From Zoogloea sp. (GTDB lineage Bacteria; Pseudomonadota; Gammaproteobacteria; Burkholderiales; Rhodocyclaceae): a DNA stretch of 64,000 nt. The stretch covers positions 124,001 to 188,000 of the forward strand of contig NZ_JAQVCN010000003.1 of the NCBI RefSeq assembly GCF_028689785.1, given 5' to 3'. A program made the position numbers and the translations under genes. Of the stretch, positions 62,922 through 64,000 are shown piece after piece (the stretch's first letter is position 1; every line of letters starts with the position of its first letter). Under the pieces are notes generated by a model, which made no database searches, was not told the DNA's origin, and saw only the letters and a program-made list of their open reading frames with translations.

Positions 62922-62950
62922 TTGCTGCATTGCAGCAGCGGGACTATCCT
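62922..62950 (+). promoter_or_regulatory. Candidate sigma-70 promoter of the cNMP-acetate kinase gene
   Basis: TTGCTG (62922-62927) and TATCCT (62945-62950) are separated by 17 bases, which fits a housekeeping promoter about 38 bases before the GTG start. The rest of the about 200-base gap (62789-62987) shows no gene. Confidence 0.4.
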
Positions 62951-62987: not shown

Positions 62988-64000
62988 GTGAGCGAAATCG
63001 ATCTGAAACGGTTCTTCCTCGAACAGGTACGCCTCTTCGAGCACTTCCCGGCCGACAAGGTCGAGGAAATCGTCAGCCAGGGCCAGCTGGCCAGCTACGA
63101 GGGCAACGAAGCCATCCTAGAGACCGGCGACGACAGCAAATACATCGGCGTGCTGATCACCGGCCACGCCGAGATCTCCATCACCGACAACACCGGCACC
63201 CGCTCGGTGCTCAGCCAGCTCGGGCCGGGCGACGTCTTCGGCGTCATGTCCATCCTCACTGGTGAGCGCCTCTCCGCCGACGTGATCGCCGGCAACCGCT
63301 GCTACGTGCTGCTGATCCCCCAGGCAGTCTTCAACGCCCACATCCTCACCAACCCGAAAGCCATCGCCTACCTGTCGCGCCTGCTCCTTGACCGCATGCG
63401 CAGCATGAGCCTGGACATCGTGGCGGGGCAGACCACCGGCACAGCCAAGTCCGACGATCCCTACGCCCTGTCCCTGGTCACCGGCCAGCCTGGCAAGGTG
63501 GTGGCCCTCAACGTGGGCGTCAGCCAGATCCATTTCGGCATCTACGACACCAAGGACATGGGCGCCGACGTGCATGGCATCGTCGACAACGCCGACCCGG
63601 CGGTAGCCTGCGTCACCGTGATGGTGGGCACCCAGGTCAAAACGCAGATGCGCGAACCCTTCCCCCTCACCGAGCTGTTCCGGGTGATGCAGGAAGCCAC
63701 CCGCCTGCTGGGCGACGCCTTCACCTTCCACCCCGAGGACGTCACCGCCGTCGGCCACCGGGTGGTCCATGGGGGCAGCAAGTTCTCCAGCGCCGTGGTC
63801 ATCACCCCGCAGGTCATCACCGAGATCGAAGCCCTCTCGGTGTTTGCCCCCCTGCATAACCCGGTCAACGTGGACGGCATCCGCATGGCCATGGGCCAGC
63901 TCTCCGGCGTGCCCCACGTGGCCGTCTTCGACACCGCCTTCCACCAGACCCTGCCGCCCTACGCCTACCTCTACGGTCTGCCCTACGATTTGTACAAGCA
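62988..64000 (+). CDS. Cyclic-nucleotide-binding domain fused to acetate kinase (partial)
   Basis: About 337 residues are visible, from a GTG start to the window edge. Residues about 10-130 form a cNMP-binding beta roll (LEQVRLFEHFPADKVEEI, LGPGDVFGVMSILTGER). From about residue 170 the sequence aligns with acetate kinase: GHRVVHGGSKFSSAVV, FAPLHNPVNVDGI and VAVFDTAFHQTLP match AckA closely. The AckA N-terminal phosphate motif (LNCGSSSLKF in E. coli) is altered to LNVGVSQIHF. The catalytic end lies beyond the window. The fusion suggests ligand-gated acetate or acetyl-phosphate metabolism, possibly linked to the acetate-forming alcohol pathway; this is inference. Confidence 0.85.
   Translation, partial: MSEIDLKRFFLEQVRLFEHFPADKVEEIVSQGQLASYEGNEAILETGDDSKYIGVLITGHAEISITDNTGTRSVLSQLGPGDVFGVMSILTGERLSADVIAGNRCYVLLIPQAVFNAHILTNPKAIAYLSRLLLDRMRSMSLDIVAGQTTGTAKSDDPYALSLVTGQPGKVVALNVGVSQIHFGIYDTKDMGADVHGIVDNADPAVACVTVMVGTQVKTQMREPFPLTELFRVMQEATRLLGDAFTFHPEDVTAVGHRVVHGGSKFSSAVVITPQVITEIEALSVFAPLHNPVNVDGIRMAMGQLSGVPHVAVFDTAFHQTLPPYAYLYGLPYDLYK

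Follow-up and report, generated by a model that had tools for sequence, protein, structure and literature searches.

What does a protein do in which a cyclic-nucleotide-binding fold and an acetate kinase share one reading frame? The question arises at the end of a 64,000-nucleotide stretch of a Zoogloea sp. genome (the window; C12:124001-188000 of a 5.08-Mb assembly), where a frame beginning at GTG 62988 (C12:186988) stays open to the window end and for 1,309 bases further. Extended through the contig, this frame reaches a stop that ends at C12:189309 (L003:9310) and encodes a product of 773 aa. The chosen start is supported by a GCGAG about 12 nt 5′ of the GTG, and in 28 of 61 copies of the gene the same motif occurs no more than 20 nt from the chosen start.

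Pfam matches divide the product into three domains: cNMP_binding (PF00027) at residues 36-119 (58.0 bits, E 9.6e-16; cut-off 27.5), Acetate_kinase (PF00871) at residues 170-559 (418.7 bits, E 2.4e-125), and the PTAC/PduL phosphotransacylase family (PF06130) at residues 584-758 (259.2 bits, E 2.3e-77). The AckA profile TIGR00016 is matched over its full length (401 bits, cut-off 293) and NF011652 matches the PduL part (263.7 bits, cut-off 209). NCBIfam names these domains acetate/propionate kinase and phosphate propanoyltransferase, and in annotations a fusion protein of this kind probably carries just one of the two names. The initial annotation, made from the window, had described a CRP-like domain and AckA in one frame; the unbroken 773-aa frame and the Pfam matches to both domains bear this out, and the acceptor and DTAFH regions that it reported are present in the visible AckA part. 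The PduL domain lies entirely beyond the window end and was hence invisible to that first reading. The gene and its parts within the window are:

62988-64000, + strand: visible part of the three-domain gene (773 aa), which goes on to C12:189309
62988-63407, + strand: N-terminal cNMP-fold domain, residues 1-140 (Pfam 36-119), canonical phosphate-binding Arg absent
63495-64000, + strand: start of the AckA-like domain, residues 170-559, which continues beyond the window; its acetate side is retained and its ATP side replaced

In an AlphaFold2 model of a relative (L075; 20 sequences; mean pLDDT 82.5, pTM 0.59), the individual domains are mostly confident and their mutual arrangement is predicted without confidence, as the pTM indicates. 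Residues 145-161 of the model fall below a pLDDT of 50, as expected of a flexible tether, and a long helix (554-579) connects AckA to PduL. By Foldseek, the target-normalised TM of this model is 0.88 to 1g99, 0.95 to the PduL structure 5cuo and 0.55 to the CRP structure 4ev0.

We searched 297 family genomes, an even draw from a larger group, with the fusion protein as query. The full three-domain architecture, which the initial annotation had proposed looking for in other genomes, was found in 60 of them as 61 full-length copies, one genome carrying two in tandem. These copies are 64-99% identical and come from 17 of 68 genera, including 12 of the 12 sampled genomes of the window's genus. None of the 61 contains an internal stop, which rules out a chance overlap or an assembly error and upholds the earlier judgement that the fusion is genuine. 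By simple counting over eight pairs of copies, dN/dS is 0.01-0.15 for the AckA domain, 0.00-0.14 for the cNMP domain, and 0.00-0.08 for PduL; on these ratios, the fusion protein is under purifying selection and is not decaying.

Named genomes extend this distribution, as a lower bound, since the scan kept the best 80 loci. Among the matches listed, the fusion occurs in Zoogloea sp. MAG.512 (L075, 83%), in an Azonexaceae MAG (L076), in a Rhodocyclales MAG (L082) and, cut by a contig end, in an uncultured beta-proteobacterium (L077). At least three more distant triple fusions (41-44% identity) are encoded by an Anaerolineae MAG (L078) and two Ca. Magnetominusculus (L079, L080). At least seven further proteins are single-frame AckA-PduL fusions with no cNMP match (L081, L083, L084, L086, L087, L088, L129), and the hosts of such two-domain fusions among the matches listed are Myxococcota, Bacteroidota, Granulosicoccaceae and Spirochaetes MAGs. 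In genus g54, three genomes have ackA and pduL as split tandem genes, which suggests that AckA-PduL fusions may have arisen from an operon. In a quick tree of the AckA domain, built on 101 rows of which 16 are among the 61 family copies, the Rhodocyclales copies form one clade on a long branch and the other triple fusions lie nearby without firm support. The 21 three-domain rows of this tree do not form one clean group (3 changes are needed), and we therefore do not claim a single origin of the architecture. The fusion protein had no full-length match in 12 order/class genomes. A DNA pattern for FTGD[IV]GE matched 4 of 369 genomes of the wider class, all four in frames that are unrelated by eye; this pattern is insensitive, finding 43 of the 61 known copies and missing the window's own GTG valine codon.

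No conserved operon partner emerged: even the commonest clusters of neighbouring genes occur at no more than 7 of 68 loci, and several of the clusters are noise of ORF calling in GC-rich DNA. In the window, the segment 62019-62786, just 5′ of the fusion gene, encodes an ECF-type sigma factor (Sigma70_r2/r4 matches) followed by a short Cys-containing ORF, putatively anti-sigma-like by eye. Farther upstream, the segment 60001-61944 encodes a small protein with Lys/Cys repeats, a leader-like N-terminus and no Pfam match, followed by MbnB/TglH/ChrH-family (PF05114) and DUF2063/NGO1945 proteins, a layout that we take to be that of a bufferin-type metal-binding peptide operon.

Does the AckA-like domain retain the residues of a kinase? 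Residues were mapped by alignment to the M. thermophila acetate kinase (ACK), whose numbering is used here. The acetate and acetyl-phosphate contacts R91, V93, H123, D148, F179, H180, P232 and R241 are each present in 61 of 61 copies, with L122 kept in 54 and N7 in 58. On the ATP side, S10, S12, K14, N211, G239, G331 and E384 are each present in 0 of 61, their replacements being, in that order, mostly L/I/V, Q, H/R, I/V, P, D and D. The S12 position is Gln in 60 copies; the G331 position is Asp in 48 and Asp, Glu or Arg together in 59; the E384 position is Asp in 59, a conservative change; and the LOOP4 residue R285 (equivalent to residue 452) is kept in 6. The set of catalytic residues that the initial annotation had singled out is accordingly preserved in part: N7, R91, H180 and R241 are retained as N175, R258, H347 and R408, and E384 corresponds to D554, with Glu in none of the 61 copies.

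As a less biased test, we scored the 61 fusions at the 72 positions at which at least 95% of 73 stand-alone AckAs agree. At 55 of these positions, 90% or more of the fusions have the AckA residue; at 12, fewer than 10% do; and the remaining 5 lie in between. Eight of the 12 lost positions fall in ATP motifs (S10, S12 and K14; N211; G239 and T240; G331; E384), and the other four are residues 203, 227, 552 and 558. Because dN/dS is low across the eight pairs and the S12 position is so uniformly Gln, these changes do not reflect decay. Single changes of N211, G239 or G331 in M. thermophila ACK lower activity 6- to 200-fold (PMC4390882), and a loss of kinase activity in the fusion would extrapolate from such single-residue mutants to many ATP-side changes. 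Read from the residues, the AckA-like domain is best interpreted as nucleotide-blind and acyl-phosphate-binding.

S10, S12, K14, G239, G331 and E384 are kept in every one of the seven two-domain AckA-PduL fusions, and N211 in five of them. Among the distant triple fusions, the ATP site is intact in L080, partly changed in L079 and strongly changed in L078; the intact site of L080 means that the three-domain architecture does not require a dead kinase. L079 and L080 belong to one genus, Ca. Magnetominusculus, and form a natural pair for studying kinase loss.

A stand-alone AckA is present in 57 of the 60 fusion genomes, in 55 as one unbroken gene; it is split over two contigs in G294, only a 46-position fragment is seen in G045, and none was found in fusion genomes G056, G138 and G189. 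PTA_PTB matches occur in 13 of 13 fusion genomes tested, many of them in frames of about 760-870 codons, which would be consistent with hybrid malic enzymes. No PduL domain outside the fusion was found in any of the 13 fusion genomes tested.

In the PduL part, the zinc ligands H48, H50, E109, H157, H159 and H204 (R. palustris numbering), its phosphate contact R103, and S127, Q107, Q74 and Q77 are all present in 61 of 61 copies, with residue roles taken from work on R. palustris PduL (PMC4784909). The CoA contact K70 is replaced by His in 58 copies and Ser in 3. On these residues, the C-terminal domain appears to be an intact enzyme for the exchange of acetyl-CoA and acetyl phosphate. The suggestion that the fusion is a non-catalytic sensor therefore fits the AckA-like part and does not fit the whole protein, in which the PduL zinc ligands and phosphate contact are kept.

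At the other end of the protein, the cNMP fold is indicated by the PF00027 match and by the Foldseek match to CRP. At the positions that we take to be the Glu and Arg of the phosphate-binding cassette, the canonical Arg is present in 0 of 61 copies and the Glu in 24. An Arg stands one residue before the canonical position in 47 of 61, and the ligand site of this domain may thus be altered. A canonical acetate kinase under cAMP was ruled out on the kinase-site and cassette residues.

How might this gene be controlled? Two features precede it:

62922-62938, no strand assigned: 17-nt palindrome TTGCTGCATTGCAGCAG, predicted operator, an exact match to the R. eutropha PhaR consensus YTKNTGCRNYGCANMAR
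62922-62950, + strand: possible sigma-70 promoter over the operator, found by eye (TTGCTG 62922-62927, 17-nt spacer, TATCCT 62945-62950)

Inside the 17-mer lies the palindrome TGCTGCA-T-TGCAGCA (62923-62937), with perfect 7-nt arms. The PhaR consensus was deduced for R. eutropha by authors who call it not particularly robust, few sites being available (PMC12849132), and the PhaR sites listed for S. meliloti have a similar look (PMC12542648). When the 200 nt before each of the 61 genes are searched for the R. eutropha consensus, 43 contain an exact match and another 9 a match with one mismatch, so that 52 of 61 carry a site with at most one mismatch, counts that are not independent as the copies are related; the closest match has two mismatches in 5 copies, three in a single copy and four in 3, of which one has no more than 102 nt of sequence upstream. 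With order-1 Markov sequences as control (100 rounds), the mean was 0.00 exact and 0.25 one-mismatch sites per 61, and 0 of 305 coding stretches contained a site with at most one mismatch. Of the 43 exact sites, 36 begin at a distance of 60-75 nt upstream of the chosen start codon. Across the 52 sites, every one has the TGC and GCA core and the CA that follows it, and all columns outside the 17-mer are conserved at 80% or less, a pattern that partly follows from how the sites were picked, the Markov and coding controls being the real test. The named relatives L076, L077 and L082 have exact PhaR-type sites and L075 has one with a single mismatch; no PhaR-like site within two mismatches precedes the three distant triple fusions or the four two-domain fusions tested. 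In the genome with two tandem full-length copies (G144; L042:2001-6794), a PhaR-like match with at most one mismatch precedes the first copy only.

The TTGCTG and TATCCT hexamers overlap the palindrome, and repression by occlusion of this promoter by PhaR is therefore plausible. A TANNNT hexamer lies 19-25 nt from the palindrome start in 44 of the 52 copies with a site, a count made without a control, and a consensus promoter scan called no promoter at 62922-62950.

The presumptive regulator is widespread among these genomes: PhaR (PF07879) is matched in 57 of the 60 fusion genomes, including the window's, and scores over the cut-off in 56, G132 having a sub-threshold fragment only; PF07879 was not matched in fusion genomes G012, G189 and G274. 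The 15-mer and 17-mer PhaR patterns together hit 19 distinct places in the window's genome, and the reversed control hit none. PhaR-type sites lie about 90-125 nt before three of the four Phasin_2 genes of this genome, two matching the 17-mer and one the 15-mer. The other places include apparently unrelated genes, and it is not likely that all 19 are real sites.

Several loci with such patterns are worth recording in their own right. An exact PhaR-type palindrome (L170; C94:87265-87281) lies about 104 nt 5′ of a DUF3422 gene, which could possibly be an unrecognised member of the PHB regulon. In L168:1541-3013, a CoA-transferase ORF (PF01144) stands upstream of a phasin gene on the same strand, with a PhaR-type site between them; this CoA-transferase resembles, by eye, an ORF that adjoins the fusion on its downstream side and points towards it in four genomes (L047, L054, L055 and L056). 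In the same genome as the window, L004:4687-7295 contains a MaoC-PTB gene followed directly by the stand-alone ackA, with a two-mismatch PhaR-like palindrome 96 nt 5′ of MaoC-PTB.

Taken as a whole, we put forward the fusion as a phosphotransacylase that is regulated by PHB and carries a regulatory domain derived from acetate kinase and blind to nucleotides, a reading that we hold at about even chances of being right. When PHB is absent, PhaR bound to the palindrome would repress the fusion gene, as reported for R. eutropha phaP1; as PHB granules form, PhaR would be titrated away and the fusion protein made together with phasins. Its PduL domain would interconvert acetyl-CoA (or another short acyl-CoA) and Pi with acyl phosphate and CoA. 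The AckA-like domain would bind the acyl phosphate or acetate made or used by PduL, ADP not being phosphorylated, and its closure, the N-terminal domain, or both would set PduL activity. Coupling between the AckA-like domain and PduL is offered as a proposal only, given a domain arrangement modelled at the pTM noted above. The outcome would be a homeostat of the acetyl-CoA/acetyl-phosphate ratio during PHB storage, operating apart from the stand-alone AckA. Acetyl phosphate activates PHB synthase in a cyanobacterium. Several observations count against this explanation: a PhaR site within one mismatch is missing from 9 of the 61 copies, PhaR itself was not matched in 3 of the 60 fusion genomes, the PduL K70 is His or Ser, the change of E384 to Asp is conservative, the ATP site of L080 is intact, and the three distant triple fusions have no PhaR-like site.

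Other explanations keep the domain catalytic. The AckA-like domain could have been re-tooled for phosphoryl transfer between acetate and PPi, polyphosphate or water, giving a PHB-induced, ATP-free interconversion of acetyl-CoA and acetate, which we regard as doubtful. Water as the phosphoryl acceptor would make the domain phosphatase-like, and together with PduL it would convert acetyl-CoA to acetate and CoA without ATP, an overflow valve in PHB turnover; the equivalents of R91, D148, H180 and R241 are universal while the acceptor side is lost, and the domain is joined to a PduL with intact catalytic residues, yet a water-activating residue was not identified and such an activity is without precedent in the papers cited here, making this quite unlikely. 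A kinase that uses PPi/Pi or polyphosphate in place of ATP/ADP would take acetate to acetyl-CoA in one chain, free of nucleotides. The PPi-dependent E. histolytica ACK differs at N211, G239 and G331 (PMC4390882), three positions that are replaced in the fusion too, and the Asp at G331 is shared with putative non-ATP ACKs from Anaerolineaceae, sequences for which Dang and Ingram-Smith left undecided whether they are neither ATP- nor PPi-dependent (PMC5517563). This possibility is nonetheless distinctly unlikely: the extended PHOSPHATE2 loop of the EhACK/Anaerolineaceae group, with its extra Gly, is absent from the copies displayed (11 of 61 family copies and L077), which have a loop of HLGNGAS length; S10, S12 and K14 are lost as well; the G331 position is nearly always charged (Asp, Glu or Arg); and none of the described E. 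coli or M. thermophila ACK variants that mimic EhACK gained PPi use (PMC5517563).

It could also be that the domain has no such chemistry, or that it has never changed its chemistry at all. A purely structural scaffold, which dimerises the protein and positions PduL and binds no regulatory ligand, would agree with the AckA fold confidently modelled in the relative L075 (TM 0.88 to 1g99). AckA family proteins are dimers. Retention of the eight universal acetate and acetyl-phosphate contacts while the ATP contacts are lost would be unexpected of a scaffold, however; the dN/dS of the AckA domain (0.01-0.15) also counts against this reading, and we consider it unlikely. That the protein is an ordinary ATP-dependent bifunctional AckA-PduL enzyme, merely slower, is in keeping with the full-length TIGR00016 match, the conservative Asp at E384 and the ATP-site residues mostly kept by L080 and the seven two-domain fusions, but it is made highly unlikely by seven ATP-side positions that are never conserved, several of them now bulky or charged, and by the separate AckA in nearly all fusion genomes. 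The first proposal for this locus, an acetate kinase whose acetyl-phosphate formation is switched directly by cAMP or c-di-GMP, can point to a PF00027 score well over its cut-off, to the Arg one residue off the canonical position, and to a weak NCBIfam match to a Pat-like protein (E 0.0033). Mycobacterial Pat is a cAMP-controlled acetyltransferase, a precedent near acetate activation. With the ATP-side residues gone, the canonical cassette Arg absent throughout and its Glu in a minority of copies, this proposal is not supported and is very improbable.

The preferred reading, a phosphotransacylase carrying a nucleotide-blind regulatory domain, can be set beside known systems. The fusion resembles AckA (M. 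thermophila ACK; 1g99, 1tuu) in fold, length and an acetate/acetyl-phosphate pocket of eight universal residues, and differs from it in being fused at both ends and in having the residues of PHOSPHATE1, PHOSPHATE2, LOOP3, LOOP4 and ADENOSINE, together with E384, replaced. It shares with R. palustris PduL (5cuo) the six Zn ligands, R103, S127, Q107 and the modelled fold (TM 0.95), whereas here PduL is the C-terminal domain of a larger protein and K70 has given way to His or Ser. The two-domain fusions likewise place AckA before PduL in a single open frame, but have no cNMP-fold match and mostly keep their ATP-site residues. Compared with the PPi-dependent E. histolytica ACK, the likeness lies in the replaced N211, G239 and G331 positions, and the difference in the additional loss of S10, S12 and K14 and in the junction to PduL. 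In the hybrid malic enzyme MaeB, an appended PTA domain acts as an acetyl-CoA sensor and regulates the malic enzyme (PMC7902834). This is a precedent for the conversion of an Ack-Pta pathway domain to a sensor, but the MaeB sensor is of the Pta type, whereas in the fusion the sensor would be of the AckA type and the enzyme of the PduL type.

As far as could be recognised in open-licence PMC papers, the three-domain protein with a replaced nucleotide site is undescribed, and neither an acetate-kinase pseudoenzyme nor a link between such a fusion and PHB control was recognised there. Each single domain is already known; their combination with a systematically replaced nucleotide site and a predicted link to PHB appears new.

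If the proposed mechanism is true, 'acetate kinase' annotations in these genomes come with a warning that the proteins may not make or use ATP, and the fusions would be a natural panel for the roles of the acetate kinase nucleotide loops. If the re-tooled reading were true instead, PHB-storing Rhodocyclales would possess a switch between acetate and acetyl-CoA that is tied to storage and independent of ATP. Acetyl phosphate serves as a signal as well as a metabolic intermediate, and its tie to PHB storage would become testable here; on our preferred reading, carbon storage would be linked to the acetyl-CoA/acetyl-phosphate pool, a link that could be tested in Zoogloea and its relatives.
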